Below are positions 32 to 28,686 of a stretch of 28,686 nucleotides of DNA, one piece after another. How positions within the stretch are numbered: position 1 is the stretch's first letter; each line of letters opens with the position of its first letter. The notes below the pieces were generated by a model. That model was not told where the DNA came from. It worked only from the letters and a program-made list of their open reading frames with translations, and did no database searches. This DNA is from a virus. The stretch is taken from IMG/VR virus record IMGVR_UViG_3300032334_000372, positions 1-28,686 of that record. One strand, 5' to 3'. Made by a program: the position numbers and the translations under genes.

Positions 32-1407
32 TGAACAGCAAACTGATGAACCTTGTAATCAAGGCGACCGACTCTGCAACGCCGAGCATCCGCAAAATCG
101 GCAAGGCTCTTGGCGGTCTCAAGAAGGTTGGATCGTCCGTAGGTTCCGGACTCAAAACAGCCGCGCTCGGAGCGATTGGGATTGCCACGTCGGTCGCTGC
201 ATTCACAGGCGCAGCCGTTGCTGCTGCAGCGGATGAACAGAAACAGATTGCGCGTCTCAACAGTGTCCTGAAAACGCGGGGAATGCTGACGGAGGAGAAC
301 AGCGCCGCGATCGACAAGCAGGTCACCAAGCTCCAAGATCTAGCCTTCAGCGATGATCAGGTACGCGAGAGTCTCATCACCGCTACCGCATTCACAAAGA
401 AGTTCAGCGATGCCATCCGGATTCAGAACGTGGCTGCAGATGTTGCCGCCGCGAAGGGGATCAGCCTAGAGGAAGCGACTGCGCTCGTCGGCAAGGCGTA
501 TCAGGGAAATACAAAGGGACTCAAGTCGCTCGGAATCCAGACCAAGAAGGGCGCTAAGGGTCTAGAGGTACTGACCGCAGTCTCGAAGAAGTACAAGGGC
601 GCTGCAGCCGCTGCAGCGGATACCGTCAGCGGTAAGTTCGCTCGCGCACAGATCTCACTCAACAATGTATTTGAGGACTTCGGCGCGAAGTTCCTCCCGA
701 TCGCTGCGGATGGACTTGATTTCCTCAACAAGACCGCTATTCCTGCATTGAGCAATGTGCTCGACACAGTAGCTCCGATTGTGCAGAACGTTGGCAAGGG
801 GCTGGCGGACACATTCGGTCCGATGATTCAGGACAACATTGAGAACTTCACGAAACCAGGCGGCGTGCTGGATTCAGTCGGCAAGGTTGTCGGTCCTATA
901 TTTGAGACGCTCGCCAAGAAAGTCGGAACATTCATCGCCGCGCTAACAGGTCCGGAAGGGCTACTGACAGCAATCGGCGATGTTGTTGGCGCGCTATGGG
1001 GAGACGGGAAAGGACCACTCGCGTTCGCTGTGCAGGCAATCGGTGCTGCGCTCGGAGGTCTGTTCGACATCATTACTGGAATCGTCGGAGTGCTCGCTAC
1101 GGTTGTTCGTGGGATCACAGACTTCCTCAATGCCAGCAATGCTGCGAACGCATATCAAGAAAGTCTTGGCAAGAACTCAACGTTCAACAATCCGAATCCC
1201 AATGACTTCTTCGCCAACGCAAACTTCGCAATGACTGGTCCGCTGCTATTTGCACCGCCAGCGCCAGCGCCAAGGTTCTCCGGACCAACACTTGGAACCT
1301 CTTACGGAGCGCCAGAGTTCAAGGTCATTGTTGGACAGAAGTCATTTGATGCAACGGTGACCGATTCAATGGATCGTGTTGTTGGTCGAACAGGTGGTCG
1401 TCCGTAA
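31..1407 (+). CDS. Tail tape measure protein
   Basis: 458 aa. The tape measure sets tail length and is threaded through the tail tube; in this family it also helps DNA entry. The N-terminus (residues 1-35, MNSKLMNLVIKATDSATPSI) has the usual tape-measure opening. It is followed by an Ala/Gly-rich hydrophobic stretch (about 44-68), a long helical region rich in Lys, Ala and Gln, a second hydrophobic block near residues 330-365, and a Pro-rich C-terminal part. It lies downstream of the tail chaperone pair and upstream of the tail tip genes, the standard place. At about 1.5 angstrom per residue the tail would be roughly 70 nm, short for a siphovirus. The ATG at 31 is preceded by AAAGGCGAAG as a modest ribosome binding site. 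The frame stays open to the left window edge, so a longer N-terminus cannot be excluded from this window. Confidence 0.85.
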   Translation: MNSKLMNLVIKATDSATPSIRKIGKALGGLKKVGSSVGSGLKTAALGAIGIATSVAAFTGAAVAAAADEQKQIARLNSVLKTRGMLTEENSAAIDKQVTKLQDLAFSDDQVRESLITATAFTKKFSDAIRIQNVAADVAAAKGISLEEATALVGKAYQGNTKGLKSLGIQTKKGAKGLEVLTAVSKKYKGAAAAAADTVSGKFARAQISLNNVFEDFGAKFLPIAADGLDFLNKTAIPALSNVLDTVAPIVQNVGKGLADTFGPMIQDNIENFTKPGGVLDSVGKVVGPIFETLAKKVGTFIAALTGPEGLLTAIGDVVGALWGDGKGPLAFAVQAIGAALGGLFDIITGIVGVLATVVRGITDFLNASNAANAYQESLGKNSTFNNPNPNDFFANANFAMTGPLLFAPPAPAPRFSGPTLGTSYGAPEFKVIVGQKSFDATVTDSMDRVVGRTGGRP

Positions 1408-2853
1408 ATGGCAACGCATCCGTTCGCGATTCTCGTTGATGGTGTGAATAGCGGTAACAATATCCTTGAGGACTATTCAACAGCCAGCCCGACAACCCCA
1501 TGGGTTGATCCAGAATCCGTGAACCTCACGCAGGATGCAGACGGCGCTGGCGGGTCAATGTCATTCGATGTCGTGCAAGTAAAAACGCCTGTGGGTGGTC
1601 CTTGGTGGAAGTCTGGTGCGGTCTATGACAATGCGCGCGTTCGATTTCAGGTAAGCGGTACGACCACATTTCTCGGATTCATCACAAGCATCAATGCGCA
1701 ACTTGCCGAGAATGGTCTTGGCACTCGCGCAACAGTCAATGTTGCAACAGCGTCAAGCTTCCTAGACAAGATCATTGTTTACAAGGGTAAGGTCGCCGCG
1801 GCTGGCTATTCGCTGGAATACACCGCGAACTTCAACATCGGTGTTGGTGCTGCTGGTGATGCATCGGCAACAACCGATCAGGCTGTGGTCACGTCGCTCG
1901 TCTCAAAGGCTGATGCTGTTCAGGCATTCAGCGGCGGCACGTCTGGACGCACGGCGAATCGACTGATCGTCAATACAGGAACCACACCGAACTATACAGG
2001 GACTGCTGTCAAAATCGGACTGCAGAAGTTCGTACCCGGAACGCTGCGCTCGTGCCTTGATACTGTCAGAGAGGCGGCTGAATCTCTGGATGGTGAGCAG
2101 CGCAGGTACTGGGTCGCAGCCAATGGCACAATCAACTACGCGCGGCTCGGATCGGCGATCCCAACCTACGCCACAGCGCCGTTCAAGGTAGTCACGACCT
2201 CAACATATTCGCCATATGGATCAAGCTCTGCGGCTGCAACGCTGCAGGTTCGCAACCTGAGCGTGTCGCTCGACCACGACAGCATCGTCAAGAAGGCGCG
2301 CTTCGTGATGAACTCCGCGTGGAGTAAACTGGACAGCCAAATCTCAGGAGGTGCATATACCGTGGCTGATCCTTATGGACGCGTTTATGACGAAGCGGCA
2401 CCTGATGGCGCTGGAATGACGACGCGCAGCGGAGCTCGTCCGGAAACGCTCATCCAAGTCAATCCAGTACCAAACCGCAAGGCTGACCCAACGTTCTGGA
2501 CGAGCACGCTCACTGATTATTCCAAGAAGTTCTTCGGCACGAATACCTATCCGAATCGCGCTGCGCCGCTGCGCTCGATCACATTCAGCGTGCGCGGTGC
2601 AGACACCACCAACAATCCATACGGATTCGCGAAGGGCTACAAGCAAACGGCTCCGAGCACATTCGTGCTACAGGATGGATGGGAAGCGGGGCAGTACGTC
2701 AGCATCGTTGCAGACTCGCTCGACCTCAATGGTTTGTACCGCATCGAATCCCTGTCAATGTCGTTTGAGGCTGGGTCAATGATTCGCAAGTACGACATCA
2801 CTTGCGAGCGCGTTCCGCGCAGCCCACTCAAGAAGTTCTTGGACAAGATCTAA
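1408..2853 (+). CDS. Tail tip / baseplate hub-like structural protein
   Basis: 481 aa, starting directly after the tape measure stop (TAA then ATG). The position between tape measure and tail fibre is that of distal tail or tail-hub proteins. Residues about 50-100 (NARVRFQ, TTFLGFITSINAQ) read as the beta-rich domain found at the start of hub proteins. The C-terminal part (GQYVSIVADSLDLNGLYRIESLS) resembles the segment in prophage tail/gpD-like hubs that contacts the tube. It is rich in Ser, Thr, Ala and Gly with no transmembrane segment. I recognise the general class from motif style and context, not a specific named family. It could equally be called a minor tail protein. Confidence 0.6.
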   Translation: MATHPFAILVDGVNSGNNILEDYSTASPTTPWVDPESVNLTQDADGAGGSMSFDVVQVKTPVGGPWWKSGAVYDNARVRFQVSGTTTFLGFITSINAQLAENGLGTRATVNVATASSFLDKIIVYKGKVAAAGYSLEYTANFNIGVGAAGDASATTDQAVVTSLVSKADAVQAFSGGTSGRTANRLIVNTGTTPNYTGTAVKIGLQKFVPGTLRSCLDTVREAAESLDGEQRRYWVAANGTINYARLGSAIPTYATAPFKVVTTSTYSPYGSSSAAATLQVRNLSVSLDHDSIVKKARFVMNSAWSKLDSQISGGAYTVADPYGRVYDEAAPDGAGMTTRSGARPETLIQVNPVPNRKADPTFWTSTLTDYSKKFFGTNTYPNRAAPLRSITFSVRGADTTNNPYGFAKGYKQTAPSTFVLQDGWEAGQYVSIVADSLDLNGLYRIESLSMSFEAGSMIRKYDITCERVPRSPLKKFLDKI

Positions 2854-4529
2854 TGGAACGACTCGGTTCTGATCAGGCGCAACTCGCAGCCTTCGGAGGT
2901 GGTGTTATCTCAGAGGAGGGCGCTGTCCTCTTGAGCGGCGAGAGTACAGGACAAAGCTCACTGCTGTTCGGTCCGGCTGCGCTGCGCGAGATTCAGGCGA
3001 ATGTTGCCAATGGTGACTTCGCAATCCCGCCGCTCGACCCGCTTGCAACAGTAGACAATGACAGCAATCCACTGCCGTACTGGACTGGCGTTGCAACGGG
3101 GACTGCACCAGCGGTTACAGCAGTGATCACCGCCTCAGCATCAACAGCCAGTGGGAATGTTCTCACGTTCACTGCTGCGGCTAGCGCAGGGGTTGGAACA
3201 GCATACGAAATCAAGCGGTATGTCCCGATTGCTGGCAATGCCAATCGATCAAGCGCCTACCATCTTGAGGTATATGTTGGAACAACGACAGGCGGCGCAA
3301 CGGACAAGACGCGAGTCCGGATCACGCTCACCGCTACTGCGGTCGATGCTAGCCTCAATGCGCTCACCGTCACGGCAACGGCGAACGGAACTGCATCAAC
3401 GATCACGAGCAAGTCGCTGTTCACGAACTGGATTGTTCCAGATGCCAATGCTGCGTTCATCCTTGTATCCGTAAAGGTAGACGTGCCGACAACATCTCCT
3501 GCAGCAGCAGTAACGCTGCCAGTCACTGAGGTGCGCGTAGCTCGGTCAGAGGGTGCCATTTCGTTTCCTGCGCTGCAGAATCCGAGCGGGGATCAATGGA
3601 TCGTCCAGAACGACAACCTGATTTTTGAGGTGTTCCCACAGACTGCGCTTACGCCTAGCCTGACGATGGAGGCGAATGCAGGAACTGGCAACTACAACAT
3701 CAACCTGAGTAATACAAACGCAAGTGGAACGATCAACATCAGTTCCGCTGGAACCTCAACGGTTAGCGGGGAATCTACATTCGTTGACGCGAATGCGAAT
3801 GTGACAATCGAGAGCGGTACGGATGACATCTACTTGAAGTCCGGATCGTCGGATGTAATCGTGCAGGACACACTCGCATCAAACGGAACGAACCCACGCA
3901 TTATGTTCCGTGACAAGAACAACACAACATATGCGTCTGTCAAGTCTGGAGCCGCAAACATTGTCCAGATTCTCAACGGCACAAGCACAACGGACTATGC
4001 ATACCTCTATGCAGAGCGGTTCTATCCGATGGACGGCGCAACCGCGAGCCGCTACATTTTTGATAACGGCTCACAGACTGCATTCAGCGGTGCTGTTCTT
4101 GCTGGATCGATTACATCAACAGGAACTGTTACTGCCAACACGTTTACCGCTGACACCATTACAGGAACCACGGCAACAACAAACGCAGCCATTTGGGTGT
4201 TGACGGCTGGAACCACCTACAACCTTCGCCGCAATACGTCGTCGGCGCGCTACAAGACCAACATCGTTGATGCCGACGAAGCAGTGCTGGAGGCTGCGCG
4301 TCGCATCACCGCTCGGCACTTTGAGAGTACGATTGCGGATGAGGCTGGAGCTACCCGCCTTGGGTTCATCGCCGAAGAGGTACACGATGCTGGACTTACT
4401 CATGCGGTAGGATACGACGCTGATGGTCGTCCGGAAACGCTCGACTCAACCGCGCTGATCGCCGCCCTATGGCATCGCGTCGCGGACTTGGAGGCAAGGC
4501 TGCAGAAACTAGAGGGCGAGAATGGCTGA
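2853..4529 (+). CDS. Tail fibre with C-terminal peptidase S74 chaperone
   Basis: 558 aa from the ATG at 2853, which is fused to the previous stop as TAATG; an upstream in-frame ATG at 2802 would overlap the tail hub gene by 52 bases and is unlikely. The body is low-complexity, beta-rich and full of Thr, Ala, Ser and Asn, as in trimeric fibre shafts. The last ~95 residues are an intramolecular chaperone domain (peptidase S74): SSARYKTNI at 463-471 holds the Ser and Lys expected at the self-cleavage site, and LGFIAEEV plus a terminal coiled coil (LWHRVADLEARLQKLE) follow. In this family the domain trimerises the fibre and then cuts itself off. The product is the likely host-receptor binding fibre. 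Confidence 0.85.
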   Translation: MERLGSDQAQLAAFGGGVISEEGAVLLSGESTGQSSLLFGPAALREIQANVANGDFAIPPLDPLATVDNDSNPLPYWTGVATGTAPAVTAVITASASTASGNVLTFTAAASAGVGTAYEIKRYVPIAGNANRSSAYHLEVYVGTTTGGATDKTRVRITLTATAVDASLNALTVTATANGTASTITSKSLFTNWIVPDANAAFILVSVKVDVPTTSPAAAVTLPVTEVRVARSEGAISFPALQNPSGDQWIVQNDNLIFEVFPQTALTPSLTMEANAGTGNYNINLSNTNASGTINISSAGTSTVSGESTFVDANANVTIESGTDDIYLKSGSSDVIVQDTLASNGTNPRIMFRDKNNTTYASVKSGAANIVQILNGTSTTDYAYLYAERFYPMDGATASRYIFDNGSQTAFSGAVLAGSITSTGTVTANTFTADTITGTTATTNAAIWVLTAGTTYNLRRNTSSARYKTNIVDADEAVLEAARRITARHFESTIADEAGATRLGFIAEEVHDAGLTHAVGYDADGRPETLDSTALIAALWHRVADLEARLQKLEGENG

Positions 4530-5901: not shown

Positions 5902-6132
5902 ATGGACCCGCTCCAAGAGCTTCGCGATCTCAGCACGCCCCGCAAGGGACCACCGTGTGCAGTCAGCCACGTCGCCCTCAGCGGCGCGGATCTCGCCGCA
6001 TTTCAGTCCGGACTGATTGATCCTGCGATCACATCAAAGGCGATTGCGTCATTCCTGCAGAAGCGGGACATCAGTATCAACTTCTGGACGATCGGTCGAC
6101 ACCGTCGCGGCGAATGCGGGTGTGGCAAGTGA
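5902..6132 (+). CDS. Small putative DNA-binding protein
   Basis: 76 aa, first gene after a 70-base gap, with a strong ribosome binding site (GGGAGGA at 5892-5898). It has a Cys at residue 19, a helical centre (ALSGADLAAFQSGLIDPAITSKAIASFL) resembling helix-turn-helix, and a basic, Cys-containing tail (IGRHRRGECGCGK). Small proteins with this arrangement occur next to metallophosphoesterase genes in other phages. Here the stop codon is fused to the start of such a gene, so the two are translationally coupled. A regulatory or DNA-end-binding role is inference; the exact function is unknown. Confidence 0.6.
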   Translation: MDPLQELRDLSTPRKGPPCAVSHVALSGADLAAFQSGLIDPAITSKAIASFLQKRDISINFWTIGRHRRGECGCGK

Positions 6133-7145
6133 GCGGCGACGAGATGCAGTTGGAACAGCGACTGCAGGAGATCACCGCAGCACATCAGCGCGCCCTCAGG
6201 CAACTTGCCAAGCGTGATGCGGCACGAGAGGAACTAGTCGCAGCGGTCTATCAGGCGGCGAAGGATGCAGCCATCAGCATCACGATCCCTGCGGTTCCAG
6301 AGCCGAAGGCATCGACCAAGAAGGGCGATCCGGAAACGCTGGTCGTTCTCCTTGGCGACTGGCAACTGGGGAAACATTCGGAGACCTACAACATTGATGT
6401 TGCGAAGGCGCGCATCGCCCTGCTCGCCAAGAAGGTCGCACGCCTGATCGAACTCCACGGGGTTCCTGTCCGCGAGATCAGCGTTGTCCTGCTCGGTGAC
6501 TTCGTGGAATCCGACGGGAACATCTTCCCCAGCCAAGCCTTTGAGGTTGAGCGCGGCGGTCTATATGTCCAGATATTTGAGGGAGCGGGAATGCTAGCTC
6601 AGTTCGTTCGGTCGATGGCTGCGCTGGCACCGAAGGTGACCGTGCGCGGGGCGATCGGCAACCACGGTCGGCTGGGGCGATTCGGCGACCACAGCAACGA
6701 GAGTAATGCTGACGCGATCTTGTATCGGGTAGCAGCCGAGCACGTCCGGACTGAGAAACGAGTCGACTGGCGCGAGAGTCTCACCCTTGGTGGTCGGCAT
6801 TGGTACGACACGCTCGACCTGCCAGGCTCCAAGAAGGCGATGCTCGTGCACGGCGATCAGTTCAGGGGTGGCGCCTTTGGGCTGCCCTACTATGCAATCG
6901 CGAAACGAGCTCAGGGCTGGAACCTCTCGGTTCAGCCATTTGATTTCCTGTTCTATGGACACTGGCACACACCAGCTAGGCTCGTTCTGAGCGACGGAGC
7001 CCATACCGTGTGGGGGAATGCGAGCATCGAGTCCAGCAACCGCTATGCACAGGAGTGGCTCGCAGCATCGGGAACCCCTGCCCAGTGGGTGCTGTTCTTC
7101 GGCAAGGAAGGACCGACGGCTGAGTATCTGGTGCGCTTAGGCTGA
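6129..7145 (+). CDS. Calcineurin-like metallophosphoesterase (Mre11/SbcD-like)
   Basis: 338 aa from the GTG at 6129, overlapping the previous TGA (GTGA); an ATG at 6114 and an ATG at 6144 are alternatives. Metal-binding motifs appear in order: GDWQLGK (76-82), LGDFVES (about 122-128), GNHGR (177-181), VHGDQF (240-245) and GHWH (277-280). The first motif has Trp-Gln where many family members have Asp-x-His, so one metal ligand may differ. Residues 1-50 form a charged helical or coiled region that could bind a partner, perhaps the small protein upstream. Relatives are DNA nucleases or phosphatases; I infer a nuclease role in DNA processing. A hairpin follows 9 bases after the stop. Confidence 0.85.
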   Translation: MSGDEMQLEQRLQEITAAHQRALRQLAKRDAAREELVAAVYQAAKDAAISITIPAVPEPKASTKKGDPETLVVLLGDWQLGKHSETYNIDVAKARIALLAKKVARLIELHGVPVREISVVLLGDFVESDGNIFPSQAFEVERGGLYVQIFEGAGMLAQFVRSMAALAPKVTVRGAIGNHGRLGRFGDHSNESNADAILYRVAAEHVRTEKRVDWRESLTLGGRHWYDTLDLPGSKKAMLVHGDQFRGGAFGLPYYAIAKRAQGWNLSVQPFDFLFYGHWHTPARLVLSDGAHTVWGNASIESSNRYAQEWLAASGTPAQWVLFFGKEGPTAEYLVRLG

Positions 7146-8992: not shown

Positions 8993-9171
8993 TGCCGATT
9001 CAAGAGTTCACCTGCTTGATTTGTGGCGCTCGGAAGTATCGAGACTTGTCGGTCGTGCGACCGCGCAACGTGGTCTGCGTACCTTGCCATGCGTTCATGG
9101 ACAGGACGGCGGTGCTTCCCGATGATGCACCAATCCCCGACGCGCAAGCGGACAGGGTTCGACCTCAATGA
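8992..9171 (+). CDS. 59-aa zinc-ribbon protein
   Basis: It has start-stop overlaps on both sides (TGATG at 8990-8994; ATGA with the methyltransferase at 9168). It has two CxxC knuckles, Cys8/Cys11 and Cys29/Cys32 followed by His33, 17 residues apart, the pattern of a zinc ribbon. An acidic, Pro-rich tail follows. It is coupled directly to the cytosine methyltransferase, which may mean a role in the same process, but small zinc ribbons are common in phage early regions. Confidence 0.7.
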   Translation: MPIQEFTCLICGARKYRDLSVVRPRNVVCVPCHAFMDRTAVLPDDAPIPDAQADRVRPQ

Positions 9172-10241
9172 AACACGCTTCGTTTTTCAGCGGGGTCGGC
9201 GGTCTGGATCTCGGATTCCATCGTGCGGGAATCACGACCGTAAGCGTCTCCGAGATTGATCCATACGCAAGCTCTGTACTAGCCGAGCGATTCCCAGACG
9301 CTCTGAATCTGGGCAATATCTTGGAGGTCAAACCTAATGACATTCCGGACGCAGACATCTGGAGCGGGGGATTCCCCTGCCAAGACCTCAGCGCAGCAGG
9401 ACTCAGGAAGGGATTCGCTGCAGGAACACGATCTAGCCTTGCATTCAGGTTCCTTGACCTTGTGGAGCAGCGACGACCAAACTGGCTCGTGCTTGAGAAC
9501 GTGCCAGGGCTCCTCACATCCAATCGCGGCGCTGACTTCGCCCGACTTCTCAGCGAGATGGTCGAACTCGGGTACAGCGTCTCGTGGCGGGTTCTCGATG
9601 CTCAACACTTCGGAGTCCCCCAGCGAAGGCGACGCGTGTTCATTGTCGGAAATCTTGGAGCCGACCGTGCCGCTGAGGTTCTACTTGAGTGCAAGGGCTG
9701 CGAGCGGCATCCTGCGCCGAGCCGAACGCAGAGGGAAGGTGCTGCCAGCGGAGCTACATCAGGCGCTGGAATCTCTGGCGAGCCAATCAGCCAAGAGCGC
9801 GAATGGAATGCGACGGCTCACTCCGACAGAAACGGAACGACTGATGGGATATCCGGACGGCTGGACGATCAGCCACTCGTGGCAACGGCGACAGCGTTCG
9901 GGCAATATGAAATGACTTCTATTGCTGGAACACTCCGAGCGAAGGGAGGGGATGCTGGTGGTGGCTCCGAGACGATCCTCTCGTTCCCATCTCGCTTCGG
10001 AAGCAACGCGAGCGTGTCAATCGACCAAGCGCAATCAATGGCGCACAGCGCGGGGGCGCCAGCCATTCTACGCATACCAGAACAGCAACAGTCAGCATTC
10101 AGCGACGGCGCATTGTTGCCACAGGGGATTGATTCGCACCGCTACCGCTGCTGCGGGAACGGGGTGGTCGCTCCTGTAGCGGAATGGATCGGACGGAGAA
10201 TCCGTTTGGTCGAGCAGCAGTATCAAGAAGGAGGGAAGTAA
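9168..10241 (+). CDS. DNA (cytosine-5) methyltransferase
   Basis: 357 aa. Transfers a methyl group from S-adenosylmethionine to C5 of cytosine in DNA. Motifs in order: I FSGVGGLDLGF (7-17), IV GGFPCQDLS with catalytic Cys71, VI ENV (110-112), VIII QRRRR (152-156), and X with GNGVV (330-334) followed by VAEWIGRRI. The region 175-320 holds the target-recognition part and includes TLRAKGGDAGGGSE, common in phage enzymes. The usual LTPxExERLxGxPDGWT segment before motif X is not in this frame; it is encoded in the +1 frame by the overlapping gene at 9337-9915. The product may be the first enzyme of a hypermodification pathway, since a TET-associated-type glycosyltransferase lies downstream. Target sequence is unknown; TCCGGA is a candidate. 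Confidence 0.9.
   Translation: MKHASFFSGVGGLDLGFHRAGITTVSVSEIDPYASSVLAERFPDALNLGNILEVKPNDIPDADIWSGGFPCQDLSAAGLRKGFAAGTRSSLAFRFLDLVEQRRPNWLVLENVPGLLTSNRGADFARLLSEMVELGYSVSWRVLDAQHFGVPQRRRRVFIVGNLGADRAAEVLLECKGCERHPAPSRTQREGAASGATSGAGISGEPISQEREWNATAHSDRNGTTDGISGRLDDQPLVATATAFGQYEMTSIAGTLRAKGGDAGGGSETILSFPSRFGSNASVSIDQAQSMAHSAGAPAILRIPEQQQSAFSDGALLPQGIDSHRYRCCGNGVVAPVAEWIGRRIRLVEQQYQEGGK
9337..9915 (+). CDS. Overlapping gene inside the cytosine methyltransferase (+1 frame)
   Basis: 192 aa wholly within the methyltransferase gene. An independent start is suggested by GGAGG at 9323-9327, 9 bases before ATG 9337. The N-terminal half is Ser/Thr-rich, as expected of an overprinted frame. Residues about 100-140 (CSLSEILEP, FYLSARAASGILRRAERRGK) match, from memory, a protein type that recurs in phages as an alternate reading of methyltransferase DNA. 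Residues 159-177 (RRLTPTETERLMGYPDGWT) are a textbook C5-methyltransferase segment that normally sits just before motif X. So this frame holds a methyltransferase element that frame 0 lacks. Options: a separate partner protein, a frameshift product, or a relic of rearrangement. Function unknown. Confidence 0.6.
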   Translation: MTFRTQTSGAGDSPAKTSAQQDSGRDSLQEHDLALHSGSLTLWSSDDQTGSCLRTCQGSSHPIAALTSPDFSARWSNSGTASRGGFSMLNTSESPSEGDACSLSEILEPTVPLRFYLSARAASGILRRAERRGKVLPAELHQALESLASQSAKSANGMRRLTPTETERLMGYPDGWTISHSWQRRQRSGNMK

Positions 10242-11185
10242 TGGCGAAACAGTACGAGTTTGTCAAGGCGCCGCAGCGATCCGACGAGTGGCTCAAGCTC
10301 AGGAAGCGCGGAATCGGTGCATCGGATATGGCTGCGGTGATGGGGGTCAGCCCCTACAAGACCGCCTATCAACTGTGGGGCGAGAAAACAGGGACGCTTC
10401 CGGAACAGAAGGTTGGCGCTGCAGCCAACCGTGGCGTGCTGCTAGAGGATGCGGTCGCCAAGTATTACGAACAGGAGACTGGACTCAAGCTCCGCAAGAG
10501 CAACGGGGTCGTGCGACTCAAGAGCATCCCGCGATTCATGGCGAGCCTTGATCGAACCATCGCAGGATCAAGCGGGATCGTTGAGATCAAAACGAGCGCA
10601 TCCCCACGCTGGTCAATGTACCCAGTACCGCCTGAGGTGATCATCCAGACAACTTGGCAAATGGGAATCGTCGGCGCACCTTGGTGCGATGTCGCCGTCC
10701 TGCTGGGTGGTCTGGTATTCCGGATTCAGCGAGTGCAGTTTGATCCTGAACTGTATGCAGGGATGCAAGAGGTAGCCATTCAGTTCTTGAAGGCGGTTGA
10801 TACGAATACGGCTCCGGACTTGACTGGTCTGGACGCTGCAGCATTCGCGCTCGCCACACCACAGACTGCAGAGGAATATGTTCCTGCAGCCAGCGAGCAC
10901 GAGACCCTGTTCGGGGAGTATCGATCAACAAAGGCGCAGGTCATCACGCTTGAAACGAAGCTCGCCGACATCGAGATCAAACTCAAACAGGCGATCGGCG
11001 AGAAGGCTGGTCTGGTCGGCAACGGCTGGACGATCAACTGGCGACAAGCCAAGCCGTCTGAGGTGACCGACTGGAAGTTGGTTGCACAGGCTGCTGGCGC
11101 GCTGCCACAGGTGATCGCGACCTACACCGACATCAAGCAGGGCAGCCGCCGATTCGTGGTCAAGGACGGGGGTCTGAATGATTGA
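10241..11185 (+). CDS. YqaJ-type recombination exonuclease
   Basis: 314 aa from ATG 10241, preceded by AAGGAGGGAA and fused to the previous TAA as TAATG. Lambda-exonuclease-like PD-(D/E)XK fold: RSDEWLKLRKRGIGASD (13-29) with the family's substrate-binding Arg and Ser-Asp, Glu69 in the helix RGVLLEDAV, Asp104 (SLDRT) and Glu115-x-Lys117 (VEIKTS) form the catalytic set. The family resects DNA ends to give 3' single strands for annealing. The C-terminal ~100 residues hold a charged helix (QVITLETKLADIEIKLKQAIGEK) seen in phage YqaJ proteins. It is coupled with the Rad52-like annealing protein downstream, forming a two-component recombinase system. Confidence 0.9.
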   Translation: MAKQYEFVKAPQRSDEWLKLRKRGIGASDMAAVMGVSPYKTAYQLWGEKTGTLPEQKVGAAANRGVLLEDAVAKYYEQETGLKLRKSNGVVRLKSIPRFMASLDRTIAGSSGIVEIKTSASPRWSMYPVPPEVIIQTTWQMGIVGAPWCDVAVLLGGLVFRIQRVQFDPELYAGMQEVAIQFLKAVDTNTAPDLTGLDAAAFALATPQTAEEYVPAASEHETLFGEYRSTKAQVITLETKLADIEIKLKQAIGEKAGLVGNGWTINWRQAKPSEVTDWKLVAQAAGALPQVIATYTDIKQGSRRFVVKDGGLND

Positions 11186-11681
11186 ACAGACGGTCGTTCT
11201 GAACGCCGACCAATGGGGTCGAGCGGGATACATCGGCGCACTGCGCGACGCTCGCAGCAAGGCGCGGGGACAGCAAGGGCGCAATGGACAGAGTCCGGAC
11301 CGCTCCCTGCAAAACCACATTGATGGCGCCGCAGCCGAACTAGCAGTCTGCACCGCACTTGGGTTACCTTGGGCGGCTCATGTCGACACCTATTTGTCCG
11401 AGCCAGACGTGGAGGTACCTTGGCTCGGCGGTATAGAGGTGAAATGGACGGCGAGCACTGGGCTCATCGTTCGCGAGAACGACCAGCACGAGCAAGCGCA
11501 CGTGTTGGTCACAGGATTCGGTCCGATCAAACGGATCGTGGGCTGGCTGGACGTAGAGCGACTACGATCCTTGAAGGCGCAGCCAAAGCATCAGTTCGGG
11601 AATGGTCGCGCCGACGCGTGGCTGGTTCCGTTTGATGAGCTAAACGACTGGGGACTATTCCCCAAGGAGGTAGTTCGATGA
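11178..11681 (+). CDS. PD-(D/E)XK-like nuclease domain protein
   Basis: 167 aa, overlapping the exonuclease gene by 8 bases. Candidate catalytic residues: Glu54 in the helix DGAAAELAV, Asp77 (SEPDVEV) and Glu87-x-Lys89 (GIEVKWT), with beta strands between, as in restriction-enzyme-like nucleases. A Trp-rich C-terminal part (GWLDVERL, AWLVPFDELNDWG) follows. It sits between the exonuclease and annealing genes, so recombination or repair is likely. The exact substrate is unknown and the fold is assigned by motif only. Confidence 0.6.
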   Translation: MIEQTVVLNADQWGRAGYIGALRDARSKARGQQGRNGQSPDRSLQNHIDGAAAELAVCTALGLPWAAHVDTYLSEPDVEVPWLGGIEVKWTASTGLIVRENDQHEQAHVLVTGFGPIKRIVGWLDVERLRSLKAQPKHQFGNGRADAWLVPFDELNDWGLFPKEVVR

Positions 11682-12385
11682 ACAAGCACTCGGAGATTCT
11701 CGCCGCGCTTGCGGCTCCATTCCCGCCTGAGGTCATCAGGCATCGACCAGGTGTCGGCGGTAAGGACTTGACGTGGGTTGATGCCCGAACCGTTGCAGCC
11801 CGACTGGATGAGGTGCTGGGAATCAGCGCATGGGACTTCGCGGTCGAGCCAGTCGGCGAGACGAGCACCGTGGTCGGCATCCTGACCCTGCGATTTCCGG
11901 ACGGGTCAGTAGCTCGGCGGCAGGACTTTGGGTACGAAACAGGCGGCTCTGGCGAATCCCTCAAGGAAGCGTCCTCAGACGCTCTCAGGCGCTGCGCTTC
12001 CCTGTTTGGGGTCGCGAGATACCTGTACGCGGGTGCAAACGCCTCTACGGGGCGCATTCCCGCCCCTACGGGGATTCCTGCAGCCCCTGCTCGACCAGCC
12101 CAGCCAGCACGGGCTATTCCGGAACCGCAGGACACGGTCGTCCTGAAGGCAGCGGTCGCCCTATTCCAAGAGGATCAGTGCCCTGAGCACGGGCTACCGT
12201 GGAGCCAGAAACCAGCAGGGATCTCAAAGGCGGGGAAGGCGTATGCAGCCTTCTGGACCTGCAGCGGTAAAACGGACGGACAGTGGTGCAGGAACAAGCC
12301 CTCAATCGCGTGGGTGAATCGACAGAGCGAACCAATCGGCGCACCAGCCGAAGGCACGGATCGCCTAGAGGATCTACCTTTCTGA
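11678..12385 (+). CDS. Rad52-family single-strand annealing protein
   Basis: 235 aa, ATGA overlap with the gene before. The N-terminal ~115 residues match Rad52/22 annealing proteins: WVDARTVAARLDEVLGISAWDF, then the signature SLKEASSDALRRCASLFGVARYLY. It anneals complementary single strands, here probably those made by the YqaJ exonuclease. An Ala/Pro linker (about 119-150) leads to a C-terminal Cys-containing segment (CPEHGLPW, FWTCSGKTDGQWC) resembling a zinc ribbon. The last residues, RLEDLPF, resemble the acidic DxPF tip of bacterial SSB, which recruits partner proteins. A hairpin follows the stop codon. Confidence 0.85.
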   Translation: MNKHSEILAALAAPFPPEVIRHRPGVGGKDLTWVDARTVAARLDEVLGISAWDFAVEPVGETSTVVGILTLRFPDGSVARRQDFGYETGGSGESLKEASSDALRRCASLFGVARYLYAGANASTGRIPAPTGIPAAPARPAQPARAIPEPQDTVVLKAAVALFQEDQCPEHGLPWSQKPAGISKAGKAYAAFWTCSGKTDGQWCRNKPSIAWVNRQSEPIGAPAEGTDRLEDLPF

Positions 12386-13941: not shown

Positions 13942-14102
13942 TCAACACACTGGTTGTCGCGCTCGTGCTGATCCACACAGGGATCGCTATGTGTATGGCG
14001 TGGATCGCCCTCACGGTTCCGCGCGCGAATCTCGTGATCGTATCTGTCTGGTTCGTGATCAGCGTGCTGACAGCGATTCTACTTGGGAGGGCTATTCGAT
14101 GA
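13938..14102 (+). CDS. 54-aa two-span membrane protein
   Basis: A small gene with ATGA overlaps on both sides (13938 with the previous TGA; its TGA at 14100 with the next ATG at 14099). It encodes two hydrophobic helices (LVVALVLIHTGIAMCMAWIA and VIVSVWFVISVLTAILL) joined by TVPRAN, ending in a basic tail. The exact fit between neighbours strongly supports it. It could be a second holin or an inhibitor of a host membrane protein; neither can be shown. Confidence 0.7.
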   Translation: MINTLVVALVLIHTGIAMCMAWIALTVPRANLVIVSVWFVISVLTAILLGRAIR

Positions 14103-14608
14103 AGTTTGCATACGCCGACCCGCCGTATCACAAACAGGGCAAGAAACTGTACGGCGAGCACCACAAGGATGCTGCTGTTTGGGATTCAAAGGACGAGCAC
14201 CTCAAACTTATTGCACGACTGATTACTGAATATCCGGACGGCTGGGCGCTCTCGTGCAATCCTGCAGACTTGCGCTGGCTGCTACCAGCAACGCCCGAAG
14301 GGACTCGCGTGTGCGCGTGGGTGAAAACATTTCACCAGATTCGACCGACGACTGTGCAGTTTGCATGGGAGCCAGTGATCTTGTACGGAGGGCGCAAGGA
14401 CAACAAGCGCAGCCCAATGGTGCGAGATTGGTACATCGGAGTTCCAACGCGGATGAAGGGACTTCCGGGGGCGAAATCCGACGAGTTCAACGACTGGATT
14501 CTGGACTTGCTGAACTATGAGGACGGCGATCAGGTAGACGATCTGTTCCCCGGAACGGCTGGAATGGCTCGTGCGATAGACCGCCTAAACCTCTGGCGGC
14601 TACGATGA
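14099..14608 (+). CDS. DNA adenine N6-methyltransferase-like protein
   Basis: 169 aa from ATG 14099. Motif IV DPPY lies at residues 7-10 and the SAM-binding motif I (FPGTAG, 150-155) is at the C-terminus, the beta-class order (catalytic motif first). The middle (PDGWALSCNPADLRWLL, VCAWVKTF, WEPVILYGG) matches small phage N6-adenine or amino-methyltransferases, some used to block host restriction. It is short, so target recognition may be minimal or supplied by another protein. Substrate base and site are unknown. It is separate from the cytosine-5 enzyme, giving the phage two different DNA methylation activities. Confidence 0.8.
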   Translation: MKFAYADPPYHKQGKKLYGEHHKDAAVWDSKDEHLKLIARLITEYPDGWALSCNPADLRWLLPATPEGTRVCAWVKTFHQIRPTTVQFAWEPVILYGGRKDNKRSPMVRDWYIGVPTRMKGLPGAKSDEFNDWILDLLNYEDGDQVDDLFPGTAGMARAIDRLNLWRLR

Positions 14609-14979
14609 GCCACATGAGTGATCTGGACATCGACCTCAAGAACGCACGCAGCCGCCGTGGGCGAACTGCTCGACAACGCGGAAACGCGTTTGAGCGAGAG
14701 GTTGCCAAGCGGTTGAACGGTCAGCGCGTCGGTCAGTTCGGCGGGAAAACTGACGTGGCTGCAGACTGGATCGCGATCCAATGCAAGGTTGGCGGTGCCT
14801 ATTCCGAGCGATACGATGGCTGGCTCCGCAGCATCCAGACCAAGGGCGACCAGATTGCGGCGCTCGTGGTCGGCGACGCTCCGGGGGCTGGAACGAAGCG
14901 CCGCACGATGATCGTGCTTGACCTTGAGGATTTCATCGGTTGGTTCGGCAAGCAGTCGCAGGAGACGAATGAGGAATAG
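14605..14979 (+). CDS. Holliday-junction-resolvase-like nuclease
   Basis: 124 aa, ATGA overlap. The order RGNAFEREVAKRL (Glu30/Glu32), GGKTDVAAD (Asp50/Asp54) and IQCKVGG (Gln59-x-Lys61) is that of archaeal-type or phage Hjc-like resolvases in the PD-(D/E)XK superfamily, where Gln can stand for the second acidic residue. The N-terminus is very basic (NARSRRGRTARQRG). Such enzymes resolve branched DNA before packaging, which fits a phage with an active recombination set. VRR-NUC-type nuclease is the main alternative. Confidence 0.75.
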   Translation: MSHMSDLDIDLKNARSRRGRTARQRGNAFEREVAKRLNGQRVGQFGGKTDVAADWIAIQCKVGGAYSERYDGWLRSIQTKGDQIAALVVGDAPGAGTKRRTMIVLDLEDFIGWFGKQSQETNEE

Positions 14980-16820: not shown

Positions 16821-17459
16821 ATGGACGTTCGATCTCGAATCGTTGGGCACGGTGAGGAATCTCCGGACCAGTTACTTGCGAACCCGCTGAACTGGCGCAT
16901 CCATCCAAAGCACCAGCAGGATGCGATGCAGGGCGTGCTGGAAGAAGTCGGCTGGGTGCAATCTGTGATCGTCAATCGAACGACTGGCAATCTGGTCGAT
17001 GGTCACATGAGGGTGGCGCTCGCGCTGCGTCAGGAGCTCGCGTCAATCCCAGTCGTGTACGTGGATCTCAGTCCTGAGGAGGAGGAGATCGTGCTGGCTA
17101 CGCTTGATCCTCTCGGAGCGGCTGCAGCGACCGACAAGGTCAAGCTCGCGGAACTTCTCGCCGACGTTTCGGTGACCTCTCAGCACCTTGAGCGTTTCCT
17201 CTCCGGACTCGGGGACGATGGCTCAGGAATGACCCACGCAGAGCGGCTAGCTGAATGGACTGGGATGCCTGAATACGAACAGCAGAATCTCACGCCGCAC
17301 AAGACCATTTTCGTTCACTTCAAGAACGATGAGGACGTGGCTGCGTTTGCCAAGTTGATCGGTCAGGTATTCACGCCGCGCACGAAATCAATCTGGTTCC
17401 CTGTTGCAGACGAGCCAGCCGATTTGTCCACAATGCGGTACACCGCTGATGAATCCTAG
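16821..17459 (+). CDS. ParB/sulfiredoxin-like domain protein
   Basis: 212 aa from ATG 16821, four bases after AGGAGGGATT; a TTG at 16803 is unlikely. The N-terminal ~100 residues match the ParB nuclease/CTPase superfamily: PLNWRIHP, GVLEEVGWVQSVIVN, and VDGHMRVALAL (DGHMR at 60-64) where many members have G-H-R. The C-terminal part (HKTIFVHFKNDEDVAAFAKL, TKSIWFP) is a second conserved module found with phage ParB proteins. Such proteins occur beside DNA base-modification genes, where they may mark or position target sites. It overlaps the glycosyltransferase gene by 11 bases, which supports a shared pathway. Its exact action is unknown. Confidence 0.8.
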   Translation: MDVRSRIVGHGEESPDQLLANPLNWRIHPKHQQDAMQGVLEEVGWVQSVIVNRTTGNLVDGHMRVALALRQELASIPVVYVDLSPEEEEIVLATLDPLGAAAATDKVKLAELLADVSVTSQHLERFLSGLGDDGSGMTHAERLAEWTGMPEYEQQNLTPHKTIFVHFKNDEDVAAFAKLIGQVFTPRTKSIWFPVADEPADLSTMRYTADES

Positions 17460-18336
17460 GCATCCGATCTACATCGTCAGCAAAGGGCGCTGGGATTCAC
17501 GGCTGACATCAAAGGCGCTACATCGACTAGGTGTTCCGCATTTCGTGGTGGTTGAGGAACAGGAAGCGGATGCGTATCGAGCGGCGCTCGACAGCAGCGC
17601 CACCGTTCTGATTCTCGACAAGCAGTATCAGCGCGACTACGAAACCTGCGACGATCTCGGAGATACCAAGAGCAAGGGTCCGGGGGCGGCGCGCAACTTC
17701 GCGTGGGAACATTCAATCAAGCAGGGAGCTTCGTGGCATTGGGTGATGGACGACAACATCAAAACGTTCTACCGACTCAACAAGAACCTCAAAACGCACG
17801 TGACGGATGGGGCAATATTCCGAGCGATGGAGGACTTCGTTGAGCGGTACGAGAATGTCGGGATGGCTGGTCCGGACTACTCAATGTTCGTCTACCGCAA
17901 GAAGAAGGAACCGCCATTCATTATGAACACGCGAATCTATTCCTGCAATCTCATCAGGAATGATTTGTCCTACCGCTGGCGTGGTCGATACAATGAGGAC
18001 ACCGATCTATCGCTGCGGATGCTGAAGGACGGCTGGTGCACAATGCAGTTCGTTGCGTTCTTGCAGGAGAAAGTTGCCACGCAGTCAATGGGTGGTGGCA
18101 ACACCGCTGAGTTCTACGCCGCTGAGGGAACACTTCCGAAGTCCAAGATGCAGGTCGCGCTGCATCCGGACGTGTCTAAACTTGTGTGGAAGTTTGGGCG
18201 ATGGCATCATCAGGTGGACTACGGCGTATTCAAACGAAACAAACTGATCCGCAAGGCTGGTGTTGAGGCAAGCGGCGTAAACAACTATGGAATGCGATTC
18301 CAGAAACGGGAGGGCGACAAATGGGTGGACAAATAA
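17449..18336 (+). CDS. TET-associated-type DNA-base glycosyltransferase
   Basis: 295 aa from ATG 17449. GT-A-like fold: IYIVSKGRW (7-15), VVVEEQEADAY, GPGAARNFAW (77-86), HWVMDDNI with the metal/sugar-binding acidic pair Asp101-Asp102, MNTRIYSCNLIRND, RGRYNEDTDLSLRMLKDGW, and QSMGGGNTAEFY. This series matches, from memory, the TAGT family described with phage TET/JBP dioxygenases, which adds sugar to hydroxymethylcytosine in DNA. No TET/JBP gene is visible here. The partner genes are a ParB-like protein before it and a Gp88 protein after it. The acceptor base might be a modified cytosine made from 5-methylcytosine by an unidentified enzyme. Confidence 0.8.
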   Translation: MNPRHPIYIVSKGRWDSRLTSKALHRLGVPHFVVVEEQEADAYRAALDSSATVLILDKQYQRDYETCDDLGDTKSKGPGAARNFAWEHSIKQGASWHWVMDDNIKTFYRLNKNLKTHVTDGAIFRAMEDFVERYENVGMAGPDYSMFVYRKKKEPPFIMNTRIYSCNLIRNDLSYRWRGRYNEDTDLSLRMLKDGWCTMQFVAFLQEKVATQSMGGGNTAEFYAAEGTLPKSKMQVALHPDVSKLVWKFGRWHHQVDYGVFKRNKLIRKAGVEASGVNNYGMRFQKREGDKWVDK

Positions 18337-24875: not shown

Positions 24876-24901
24876 ACTGAACTAGAAGTTCGGTAGGTTG
24901 T

Positions 24902-24929: not shown

Positions 24930-24947
24930 CAACTGCAAGGGGGACTG

Positions 24948-25175: not shown

Positions 25176-25434
25176 TGTTGAGAGCGTACAGGTTACCTGC
25201 ACGACCAGTCCTACGCTGCTCGTGACGGCTGACACAGACGGCTGCCGCGTATACATTCACCATGCAGGCGCAGGATCTATCTGGCTGGGCGGTGCGGATG
25301 TGAGCACCTCAAATGGATTCAATCTCGTAAACGCTGACGGATTCATCGACCTTGTACTTCCGCCAAATGCAAAACTGTATGCTCGCGCTAACTCCGGAAC
25401 CGAATCGGTACAGATTCTGAAGGTAGGTAACTAG
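25168..25434 (+). CDS. Small beta-rich head protein (possible decoration protein)
   Basis: 88 aa from ATG 25168, overlapping the previous gene by 8 bases. Beta-strand pattern (VQVTCTTSPTLLVTAD, CRVYIHHAG, SIWLGGADVST, LYARANSGTESVQILKV) is that of short proteins often found between capsid and connector genes, where an exposed beta sandwich sits on the head or neck. No strong family match can be named. A structural role follows from position. Confidence 0.6.
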   Translation: MADVESVQVTCTTSPTLLVTADTDGCRVYIHHAGAGSIWLGGADVSTSNGFNLVNADGFIDLVLPPNAKLYARANSGTESVQILKVGN

Positions 25435-25436
25435 CG

Positions 25437-26033: not shown

Positions 26034-26470
26034 TGGACGATCTCACGATCCATCAGGCGGTAGCAGCGCGGCTCTTGGCTGCGACCCCGCCCACGGGCTA
26101 CACGCTCCGAGCAGCACACGCCACCCCGCCCGACAATCTCGCCGTGGTTCCTGCAGCCGTCTGCATCCCGTCCGGAGATACGATCTCTTACGGCGCTGGC
26201 GGCGCTCGATCAACCGTGCTGTCGATCAGCGTCGTAATCTATCTCAACGAACAGGCTGACATGGGGCGCAAGTACGCCGATCTCCTCAAGTGGCGAGCGT
26301 GGCTGCGTGGGGTATTCGATGGGCAGGTGCAACTGAACACAGCGGGGGTAGCACAGGCGATCGTCGGGTCTACTACAATCGGGACTGATACTTGGGCAGA
26401 CACGATGTATCTCACGATCACGGCTGACCTGCAAGTAAGTATTCTGGAAGGGGTGAATGTTAGTGCCTGA
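26033..26470 (+). CDS. Tail terminator / tail completion protein
   Basis: 145 aa, TAATG overlap. Starts with a helix (LTIHQAVAARLLAATPP) followed by alternating strands (STVLSISVVIYLNEQADMGRKYADLLKWRAWLRGVFD, LTITADLQVSI), in line with gpU/gp10-type proteins that cap the tail tube before joining. Family assignment is by pattern and by position between connector and major tail protein. Confidence 0.65.
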   Translation: MDDLTIHQAVAARLLAATPPTGYTLRAAHATPPDNLAVVPAAVCIPSGDTISYGAGGARSTVLSISVVIYLNEQADMGRKYADLLKWRAWLRGVFDGQVQLNTAGVAQAIVGSTTIGTDTWADTMYLTITADLQVSILEGVNVSA

Positions 26471-26648
26471 TACGTTGCGAACTCTGAAGGTCAAGGTGGT
26501 GCAGCCACGTCCAGAGAACAATCCATACCTTCCAGCATCGGACGATGTAGTAGACTTGGACGCTGCAGTCGCGCTGTCGCTCGCTGCATCCGGACTAGTC
26601 GAAATCGTGCAGCCAAAGTCAAACAAGACTGATAAGGAGACCGAATAA
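26457..26648 (+). CDS. Small hypothetical tail-region protein
   Basis: 63 aa, ATG 26457 with GGAAGGGG just upstream, overlapping the terminator gene by 14 bases. A strand-helix pattern (LKVKVVQPRPENNPYLPASD, VVDLDAAVALSLAASGLVEIV) resembles small proteins preceding major tail genes. Function unknown; an assembly factor is possible. Confidence 0.6.
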   Translation: MLVPDTLRTLKVKVVQPRPENNPYLPASDDVVDLDAAVALSLAASGLVEIVQPKSNKTDKETE

Positions 26649-26650
26649 CA

Positions 26651-27667
26651 ATGCCAACGCTAGGCGCCAAGTCATTCACGAAGGTTGTTGCCAAGGGCGA
26701 TACATACGGAACGCCAGCAACATTCAATGATGCAAACGGCGAGCTCCTGCATACGGACATCGTCGGGATTGTTGATGCTGGCGTTGTAGTCGATCTCGCT
26801 GAGGACAAGAGCGTTGGCATTCGACCGCGCCGCGTCGCCGCATCGGCAACCGTTACGGCGAAGGCTCCAGTTGTCACCTTTGGTGAGGCTCCTGTATCGC
26901 TGCGAACACTTCCAATCCTGTTTGATTCGCTCGCGACCATTACACCAACGAACACCCCACCTTCTACCGTTTACCAGTGGGCATACGCTCCAAGCCAGAC
27001 TGATGTGGACACACTCAAAACCTATTCGCTCTACCTCACGGATGGCGTTCAGAAGTTCATCGTGGATGGATGTGTGCCAACCGAAATCAGCCTGAGCGCG
27101 GATCAGTCCGGACTGCTTCAGATGGGCAGCACGTGGGCTGGTCGAGCACTGAGCACGACGAGCGATACCAGCACGGCAGCCTTCGCAACTCAGTACTTCA
27201 TTCCTGGTCGTTTGTTCGGTCTAAAAACTCACTCGTCGATGATCACAGCCAAGACTGGAACTGGCACGTCGTACTCAAGCTTCATCACGAACTGGAACCT
27301 CACCCTCACTCCGGGGGCTGCGCCTCTGCAGGTGCTCAACGGTTCGACCACCAACGTGAATGCTGGCGGCGTTGCCTATACGGGCGCGCTTGATGGCACG
27401 CTGGAACTGACCATCGCATCGAACAGCAATGCCACCACGTCGTTCCCTGTGGGCGACATCGGCACGACCAAGTTTGTGCAGGTTCAGGGGCTAGATGCCA
27501 ACGGCTACGGGTTCACCGCGAACATCTGCGGCGTGGTTGAGAATGTCACCGTGATCGGCAGCGAGTCCGACGGGCTGATCCTCAACACCGTGACCCTTCA
27601 GCTTGCCAGCAATGGCACGAACAGCATTCTGTGCTGGGTGGATTCGCCGCTGGCGGCTCGCCCATAA
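26651..27667 (+). CDS. Major tail protein
   Basis: 338 aa. Beta-rich, with a tube domain at the N-terminus (GAKSFTKVVAKGDTYGTPATF, IRPRRVAASATVTAKAPV) and an Ig-like or extension part toward the end (FVQVQGLDANGYGFTANICG, VENVTVIGSESDGLILNTV). Position before the tail chaperones and the tape measure is the standard one. It polymerises as rings around the tape measure to form the tail tube. Composition rich in Thr, Ser, Ala and Gly. Confidence 0.85.
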   Translation: MPTLGAKSFTKVVAKGDTYGTPATFNDANGELLHTDIVGIVDAGVVVDLAEDKSVGIRPRRVAASATVTAKAPVVTFGEAPVSLRTLPILFDSLATITPTNTPPSTVYQWAYAPSQTDVDTLKTYSLYLTDGVQKFIVDGCVPTEISLSADQSGLLQMGSTWAGRALSTTSDTSTAAFATQYFIPGRLFGLKTHSSMITAKTGTGTSYSSFITNWNLTLTPGAAPLQVLNGSTTNVNAGGVAYTGALDGTLELTIASNSNATTSFPVGDIGTTKFVQVQGLDANGYGFTANICGVVENVTVIGSESDGLILNTVTLQLASNGTNSILCWVDSPLAARP

Positions 27668-27699
27668 AGTAACCCGCGAGCAGCGGGGAGGAGGAGCGA

Positions 27700-27990
27700 A
27701 TGGCAGACACGGCAACCGATCCTGTAATCGTGCACCTTGAGGGCGAGTTCTCCGGATGGCACGCGACATTCCGTCCATTGACGCGCATCTCGGCGCGGGT
27801 GCTGATTGACCTTGAGAGTGACTCAAATGCCAAGAGGCTACAGGCGTACACGCGAATGATCCTGAGCATTGAAGGCTGGAAGGATCTGGACGGCAACCCA
27901 ACCAGCGACCCGCTTGAGGCTCCGATTCAGGCGCTCGATGCTGCGGCGACCGCATTCCTTGAGAGGGCTGCAACACTCCCAAAAGGCTGA
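27700..27990 (+). CDS. Tail assembly chaperone, short form (gpG-like)
   Basis: 96 aa with GGGGAGGAGGAG directly upstream. The pattern PVIVHLEGEFSGWHATFRPLTRISARVLIDLESD and a helical end (IQALDAAATAFLERAAT) fits the first tail chaperone, which wraps the tape measure during tail assembly. The last codons before the stop contain the slippery sequence C-CCA-AAA at 27978-27984, so a fraction of ribosomes should move to the -1 frame and make the long form. Confidence 0.8.
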   Translation: MADTATDPVIVHLEGEFSGWHATFRPLTRISARVLIDLESDSNAKRLQAYTRMILSIEGWKDLDGNPTSDPLEAPIQALDAAATAFLERAATLPKG

Positions 27991-28181
27991 GGCTGGCTGC
28001 TCGTCAAATAAGTTTGGGGCAGCCGATCTCCCCACCAGCCGAAATCGTGTTCCACGTTCTAGCTGAGAAGTTCGGCAAGTTTCCGTGGGAAGTAGAGGAC
28101 GCGCCGCTACACTTGGTGCTCAAGGCGTGGGCATTGCACGCCGAAATGCAGCCAAAGGAAGTGAAGCGTGGTCGATCCTAA
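27700..28181 (+). CDS. Tail assembly chaperone, frameshifted long form (gpGT-like)
   Basis: Frame 0 from 27700 to the slippery site, then -1 frame to TAA at 28179-28181. The second part reads RLRLAARQISLGQP, then PPAEIVFHVLAEKFGKFPW, EVEDAPLHLVLKAWALHAEM and a basic end. The segment with FPWEV and a helical Ala-rich end matches the T part of tail chaperone fusions. The -1 frame contains no stop and no good start of its own, so it must be reached by frameshifting. Total about 160 aa. The next gene begins 14 bases before its end. Confidence 0.8.
27978..27984 (+). promoter_or_regulatory. Slippery heptamer for -1 frameshift
   Basis: CCCAAAA, read as C CCA AAA in frame 0, fits the X-XXY-YYZ rule. 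It lies two codons before the TGA of the short chaperone, and the -1 frame stays open for 65 codons afterwards. This is a conserved feature of tail chaperone genes. Confidence 0.8.
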
Positions 28182-28686
28182 GCGTTCTGGATTGGTCTAC
28201 TTGACTGAAGGTTCACTGCGCGACATTGACGAGTTCAGGCTCGGATTTATTGAGGCTAGTAATCCGCGCAAGTTCAGGGCAATGCTGCAAATGGCAACGC
28301 TCAATGCGGCGCGCACAATGGTGAAACCAGTCAAGGCTGAAGCTCCAGTCCGGACTGGAAGGCTACGCGGGGCTGTCGCTGCGCGCAAGGCGAAGTTCAA
28401 CAATCCAGCAGCCGTGGTCGGTGTCAAGGCGGGAGCCTCACGCGGCGACAGCAAGGGCGCGTGGTACCGCTGGTTCATCGTCAGCGGTCACCGCACGCGG
28501 GGGACTGGTCGAGCGCCAGAGCGCATTACGTGGGAACAGGCTGCGGCTGGAGTCCCGCTTCCAGCGCGACGCAACCGTGGATTCGTTCCAGCGCGCAACT
28601 TCGTCTACGATGCGACAAGCAACTCGTCGGTGCGAGCACGGGCTGAGGAAGTGCTCGCCAAGACCGTGCGCGCTTGGCTCGATGGC
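28168..28686 (+). CDS. HK97 gp10-like tail completion protein (cut by window edge)
   Basis: 173 codons to the right edge with no stop; GTG 28168 has AGGA 8 bases upstream. The pattern MVKPVKAEAPVRTGRLRGAV, GAWYRWFIVSGH and FVPARNFVYDA is that of HK97 gp10-type proteins, which help join or complete the tail. These are normally 130-190 aa, so little is missing. The C-terminus may be the IKYKARKAK tail at bases 2-31 of this window. If the window ends are joined directly, the frame instead runs into the tape measure, giving a 641-aa fusion that would be unusual. Confidence 0.75.
   Translation, partial: MVDPKRSGLVYLTEGSLRDIDEFRLGFIEASNPRKFRAMLQMATLNAARTMVKPVKAEAPVRTGRLRGAVAARKAKFNNPAAVVGVKAGASRGDSKGAWYRWFIVSGHRTRGTGRAPERITWEQAAAGVPLPARRNRGFVPARNFVYDATSNSSVRARAEEVLAKTVRAWLDG

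Follow-up and report, generated by a model that had tools for sequence, protein, structure and literature searches.

Why should a phage carry dozens of copies of a palindrome of the type recognized by restriction enzymes, when phages are expected to lose or to ignore such sites? The question is raised by the hexamer TCCGGA in a viral DNA of 28,686 bp and 58% GC (IMG/VR virus record IMGVR_UViG_3300032334_000372), hereafter called the window, by which the whole analysed stretch is meant. In the relatives L001 and L002 both window ends are joined almost without interruption, which suggests that the window is a circularly permuted genome and complete. TCCGGA is its commonest 6-mer, and the roughly 60 copies reported in the original prediction have turned out to be exactly 60. 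The array of exact matches reaches from 145 to 28354, has no strand, and stands out by its excess, its even spacing and its conservation; the sites start at 145, 416, 951, 1279, 2439, 3316, 3840, 4430, 4824, 5408, 5760, 6007, 6329, 6745, 7283, 7889, 8232, 8565, 8928, 9344, 9852, 10399, 10719, 10813, 11294, 11896, 12118, 12608, 12985, 13235, 13461, 13923, 14233, 15176, 15489, 16065, 16514, 16862, 17202, 17871, 18165, 18505, 18964, 19628, 20192, 20452, 21167, 21581, 22369, 22566, 22767, 23368, 24143, 24955, 25393, 26171, 26589, 27107, 27751 and 28349, the last copy occupying 28349-28354. First- and second-order Markov models predict 7.9 and 8.9 copies, which corresponds to a 6-7 fold enrichment, and the codon-preserving (synonymous) shuffle, named beforehand as the comparison that could overturn the claim, has yielded 10.9 ± 2.9 copies with a maximum of 22 in 300 shuffles, so that the excess stands. 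The copies are distributed over the three codon phases (18/16/25, plus one intergenic copy); as all phases are used, just as had been noted before, a codon or peptide preference cannot explain them, and together with the shuffles this cause has been ruled out. Nine further CCGG sites exist (2036, 2973, 14465, 14550, 14881, 17680, 21822, 24612 and 27311, spanning 2036-27314, no strand). Their number had been given correctly, whereas several of the earlier coordinates were off by 1-25 bp and the site at 14881 had been overlooked. Each of the nine reads TCCGG on one strand (five TCCGGG, three CCCGGA, one TCCGGC), and the apparent absence of ACCGG and GCCGG holds for the + strand of the window.

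The regular spacing of these copies is a new observation that goes beyond the original prediction. The mean gap between TCCGGA sites is 478 bp and the coefficient of variation (CV) of the gaps is 0.43 on the linear and 0.42 on the circular map, as compared to 0.98 for random points; none of 20,000 random placements has been found as even, and the CV is the lowest among 351 common 6-mers of the window. Even the wrap-around gap, from 28349 to 145, amounts to 482 bp. The regularity is likewise not reached in any of 5,000 random draws of 60 sites from the 180 reachable positions, i.e., those at which TCCGGA is present or can be made by at most two synonymous or non-coding changes. When TCCGGA and the nine other sites are taken together, the 69 CCGG sites have a CV of 0.38. 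Two further tetramers form grids of their own without strand: AGCT (329-28344; 58 sites vs 117 expected, mostly within GAGCT/AGCTC, circular CV 0.46) and TCGA (311-28682; 140 sites vs 172 expected, circular CV 0.66), the latter with frequent short gaps and no gap over 550 bp. GATC, TGCA, GCGC and others are placed at random in the window. The remaining CCGG and AGCT sites, with CVs of 0.38-0.46, do not show the random placement of classical avoidance. Beside the grids, AATT (0 copies), TTAA (0), GGCC (2) and most CATG (22 vs 163 expected) have been purged by strong classical restriction-site avoidance. CTGCAG is also in excess in the window (40 copies vs 13 for the first-order Markov model), with gaps that are not regular (CV 0.79).

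Comparisons with relatives show that the TCCGGA sites are under purifying selection. Between the window and L081/L082 (90-93% identity), 38 of 39 TCCGGA sites have been retained, compared to about two thirds of other palindromic hexamers; for the window and L001/L002 (82% identity) the values are 35 of 43 and about one third. Sites lost in L001 have been refilled nearby, that at 1279 by sites at 1509 and 1942 and that at 3316 by one at 3437. Transversions and double changes are found among these differences, an argument for selection and against a single mutational process. The earlier proposal that the palindrome is kept by selection has thus gained support from the retention above other palindromic hexamers and from the excess over the codon shuffle, and the 6-7 fold enrichment combined with the retention of 38 of 39 sites argues that the sites are beneficial.

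TCCGGA is the window subclade's form of a wider spacing pattern of four palindromes, CCGG, AGCT, GGCC and TCGA. About 240 loci have been collected from viral contigs with the C5-methyltransferase, the TET-associated glycosyltransferase (TAGT), the terminase and the Mre11-like exonuclease as queries. These loci are interrelated and some derive from one contig (e.g., L001/L177, L028/L189, L046/L243), so that any pooled significance is inflated; reduced locus sets and tests within the window are free of this kinship inflation. Among the methyltransferase-set loci, 40-52% are over-regular for the four motifs, as compared to 2-5% of the TAGT loci; of the other palindromic tetramers only GATC is over-regular in these two sets, namely in 12% of the methyltransferase-set loci. 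The spacing rule is common in the clade that is marked by the phosphoesterase/exonuclease (PHROG 284; 6114-7145, + strand, in the window): among loci of 9 kb or longer, 61 of 71 within this exonuclease clade and 21 of 82 elsewhere have at least one regular motif, and none of four control motifs is regular in the clade. When about 5,700 words were scanned in a reduced locus set, only CCGG, AGCT, GGCC, TCGA and their extensions came out as regular. CCNGG and GGNCC are regular solely via CCSGG and GGSCC, because CCWGG and GGWCC are mostly avoided, and no regularity has been found for CCWGG, GGWCC, GCNGC, GANTC or gapped 6-mers. The pooled gaps of controls are exponential, while those of the four motifs peak near their own mean, with a 99th percentile of 1.1-1.3 kb. 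The bearers are small, tailed lake phages that form one clade and are known through metagenomes. The spacing pattern itself is well supported, and it appears to be new, since the open-access literature searched has yielded neither a report of restriction palindromes at even spacing in phages nor a description of the four-palindrome pattern.

Like sites exclude each other over about 300-400 bp, long gaps are in short supply, open gaps are refilled, and the motifs behave independently. For each of the four motifs the pair correlation of like sites stays below 1 out to ∼350-400 bp (0.12 for GGCC under 50 bp), and all cross-correlations between different motifs are flat; the equal exclusion range and the flat cross-correlations describe four grids that are independent of each other and share a single length scale. 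When two related genomes are compared, the sites found in one but not in the other avoid the shared sites within 300 bp, with unique-vs-shared ratios of 0.12/0.36/0.33 for CCGG and 0.29/0.49/0.25 for GGCC and controls near 1, and unique CCGG sites are enriched more than 400 bp away from shared ones. Gaps over ∼1 kb are rare for the four motifs. Simulations with the measured exclusion (Gibbs models with a pooled interaction function, hence approximate) give CVs of 0.58-0.71 at comparable densities vs the observed 0.38-0.46, and where a motif is not depleted 98 long gaps have been counted vs 166 expected. Since the simulated CV is too high and even motifs without depletion have few long gaps, exclusion alone is insufficient, and exclusion-only models have been rejected.

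The flanks of the sites differ from lineage to lineage. The window clade has TCCGG(A), the L168 group CCCGG/GGGCC/CAGCT, L189/L223 CCCGGC and ATCGAA, L083 GGGCCC, and L059 one-sided TCCGG. The asymmetric contexts occur on both strands, and therefore the rule acts on double-stranded DNA and not on RNA or protein; a function at the RNA level is ruled out by the same evidence. In any one phage a motif is absent, regular or neutral. CCGG, AGCT and GGCC usually lie under expectation in clade members, TCCGGA, GGGCCC and ATCGAA over it. In L083, GGGCCC is iterated (29 copies vs 6.8 expected, CV 0.45), with CCGG and AGCT regular as well. In L226, L231, L232, L234 and other close relatives, AGCT and CCGG (in some also GGCC) are wholly absent and not regular, so that the motif state flips between related phages. 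Restriction-site avoidance as described for phage genomes (PMC6286503) shares with this picture the Type II palindromes, the low CCGG, AGCT and GGCC counts in most members and the complete purging of other palindromes. The difference is that the leftover sites are here regular, conserved and strongly enriched in one context, none of which avoidance predicts.

The spacing phenomenon may reach beyond the clade. GATC is regular in the distant methyltransferase-bearing contigs L062, L063, L068, L072 and L073 (CV 0.58-0.78), and in L072 AGCT and TCGA are regular too. Judged by terminase, portal and exonuclease, several actinophages (Pontimonas phiPsal1, Streptomyces phages, DSL-LC01) are among the nearest cultured relatives, and a nucleotide search of GenBank phages has returned no relative. 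None of the four motifs is regular in eight cultured or GenBank phages, namely T7, lambda, Dagobah, DSL-LC01 (partial), CRP-821, ct2os315, Rctr41k and phiPsal1. The whole genome of phiPsal1 (L246), a phage of Pontimonas salivibrio, shows regular GATC (58 sites, CV 0.63, p 5e-5 uncorrected for multiple tests). No other cultured phage among those tested has a regular palindrome, and phiPsal1 may thus serve as a laboratory system.

To account for the data, a second like site close by must be costly, and a site must be of advantage wherever the next one is more than several hundred bp away. As a tentative explanation, the one that we favour but regard as no more than possible, opposing selection by host restriction and modification could keep the spacing. 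Each site would be a liability, a potential cut site until modified, with the cost supplied by Type II restriction, while no point should be farther than several hundred bp from a modified copy of the motif. The likeliest reason would be that host-methylated sites mark the phage DNA as self and that a nuclease attacks long unmarked stretches. The cheapest solution would then be sites of each motif roughly 400-500 bp apart, embedded in those flanks that the local host methyltransferase protects (TCCGG here), and a motif would simply be purged where only a conventional restriction enzyme is met. The three motif states and the lineage-specific flanks fit such changing host enzymes. More doubtful still is the specific form of a spacing code. 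In it, as many as four grids, independent of one another and each with an exclusion zone of ∼350 bp and gaps of up to ∼1 kb, would act as 'self' marks spread along the DNA, and a host defence not described so far would destroy any DNA that has no modified site nearby. Several points weigh against opposing selection. Its benefit half is a guess, as it presupposes a putative defence that needs modified sites at a set density, and the modification of the grid sites is a prediction. Plain avoidance of longer restriction sites could account for the flank rule as well. In the L168 group, the conservation of CCGG and GGCC is at the upper end of that of the control motifs and not clearly above it, and the AGCT and TCGA sites of the window turn over at about control rates vs L081/L082.

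The main rival retains only the cost. Lone sites would be tolerated and pairs closer than ∼300 bp would be harmful, either because of two-site enzymes of Type IIE/IIF or because close breaks cannot be repaired by the RecE/Rad52-type machinery. Many Type II enzymes need two sites (PMC4081073), and lone sites are refractory to the two-site enzymes of Type IIE/IIF (PMC4081073, with the EcoRII work as far as it is cited there), for which, as here, the distance between like sites matters. The strong short-range exclusion and the single length scale across four motifs speak for this explanation, as does the conservation of YqaJ, Rad52 and Mre11-like genes in the clade; in the window, the YqaJ/RecE-type recombination exonuclease (10184-11185, + strand; PF09588, E 1.6e-25) and the Rad52/22-type annealing protein (11678-12385, + strand; PF04098, E 5.5e-11), both clade-conserved, bear on break repair. 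The short-range avoidance expected from two-site or repair-limited tolerance has indeed been observed. However, such tolerance predicts the avoidance of close pairs only, with neither a filling of long gaps nor a preference regarding them, and leaves unexplained the depletion of long gaps in non-depleted motifs as well as the 6-7 fold enrichment and conservation of TCCGGA; the CV from exclusion alone misses the observed range, and the observed exclusion is strongest at very short distances, although the looping between two sites should be weakest there. We consider this reading doubtful, yet only a little less probable than opposing selection.

A molecular drive, in which cut sites would promote the recombination of their flanks into other phage genomes with about one site per recombining fragment, is improbable. 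Such a drive has been discussed for the DNA uptake sequences of Haemophilus and Neisseria (PMC1939737), which share with the grids a short motif in excess and, in the models, a precedent for even spacing; the recombination genes conserved in the clade would also suit it. Yet the bearer is a phage and not a competent bacterium, four palindromic tetramers are involved, and divergence as a function of distance from the sites is the same as for control motifs. As no divergence gradient beyond the controls has been detected, recombination hot spots at the sites have been rejected.

A little less probable again is a grid that reflects a highly iterated motif in the chromosome of the host, whatever the role of that motif there. 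HIP1 and other highly iterated palindromes of cyanobacteria are associated with methyltransferases (PMC4390886), and TCCGGA resembles them as a short palindrome with strong over-representation (60 copies vs 8-11 from Markov models or codon shuffles), conservation above background (38/39; 35/43), maintenance by selection and an associated methyltransferase. It differs in residing in a virus, in its even spacing of ∼0.5 kb, in the several independent grids with flanks that change between lineages, and in a methyltransferase that is dispensable. The only metagenome-assembled genome (MAG) with a relative, a 6-kb one, is from Rhodobacteraceae; no regular motif has been found in the bacterial contigs of this MAG or in 15 stretches of its family, which is not a clean test, as the host is not established.

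The original prediction had suggested that TCCGGA may be the site of the phage's own C5-methylation and sugar addition, the array thus carrying a hypermodification. Cytosine hypermodification by TET and TAGT (TAGT model PF20691) is a known phage system, and the window encodes both a C5-cytosine DNA methyltransferase of 357 aa (9168-10241, + strand; PF00145, E 8e-55; TIGR00675) and a TAGT homologue (17404-18336, + strand; PF20691, E 3.6e-48); the methyltransferase set is, moreover, richer in regular loci than the TAGT set. Nevertheless, the relative L175 aligns through the locus with exactly the methyltransferase gene cleanly missing (94% identity downstream of the gene) and still has 22 TCCGGA at a CV of 0.42, with 18 of 23 orthologous sites retained compared to 46% for other palindromic hexamers. 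The methyltransferase gene is thus not needed for the array. Among 30 related records, many near genome length and most of them regular, a C5-methyltransferase has been found in 5 and TAGT in 2 (over the cut-off); near-complete relatives that have none of the two genes show the same regular spacing, and L083 has TAGT without a C5-methyltransferase and yet iterates GGGCCC. The conversion of 5-methylcytosine to 5-hydroxymethylcytosine would have to precede the sugar addition, and this step is missing, since a TET/JBP oxidase has not been found in the window (PF12851, no match at E ≤ 1). AGCT and TCGA are, finally, regular in the same genome. The spacing is independent of the phage C5-methyltransferase and glycosyltransferase, which L175 and the relatives with none of the two genes exclude as its cause, and the suggestion has become very improbable, being largely refuted as a general cause. 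The TAGT gene at 17404-18336 stands in this genome without a detectable TET/JBP partner. A further protein of 169 aa (14099-14608, starting with MKFAYADPPY) shows, by eye, an adenine/N4-cytosine methyltransferase-like motif and has no match in Pfam, PHROG or NCBIfam.

Equally improbable are proteins that bind the sites and arrange the phage DNA, for folding or packaging, in loops of about 500 bp; the single length scale lies near the easiest DNA loop size, but the motifs are dispensable, since some close relatives do without them, and folding does not require four independent grids. A sequencing or assembly artefact, suggested by the purely metagenomic origin of the clade's regular genomes and by an exclusion range like the Illumina insert size, is hardly credible given the conservation of sites at the same positions across samples amid normal divergence, the many neutral IMG/VR contigs, the neutral control motifs in the same contigs, and the regular GenBank MAG contig L245.

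In these phages, restriction palindromes are kept at controlled intervals, several motifs together, and two-sided selection becomes visible in natural variation. The spacing of sites is a cheap signal for which any phage genome can be screened, and the flanking contexts predict specificities of host enzymes. If the pattern reflects a repair-limited tolerance of cuts, it would provide an in-vivo ruler for phage break repair; if a defence reads the spacing of modified sites, it would constitute a new principle of self/non-self discrimination.

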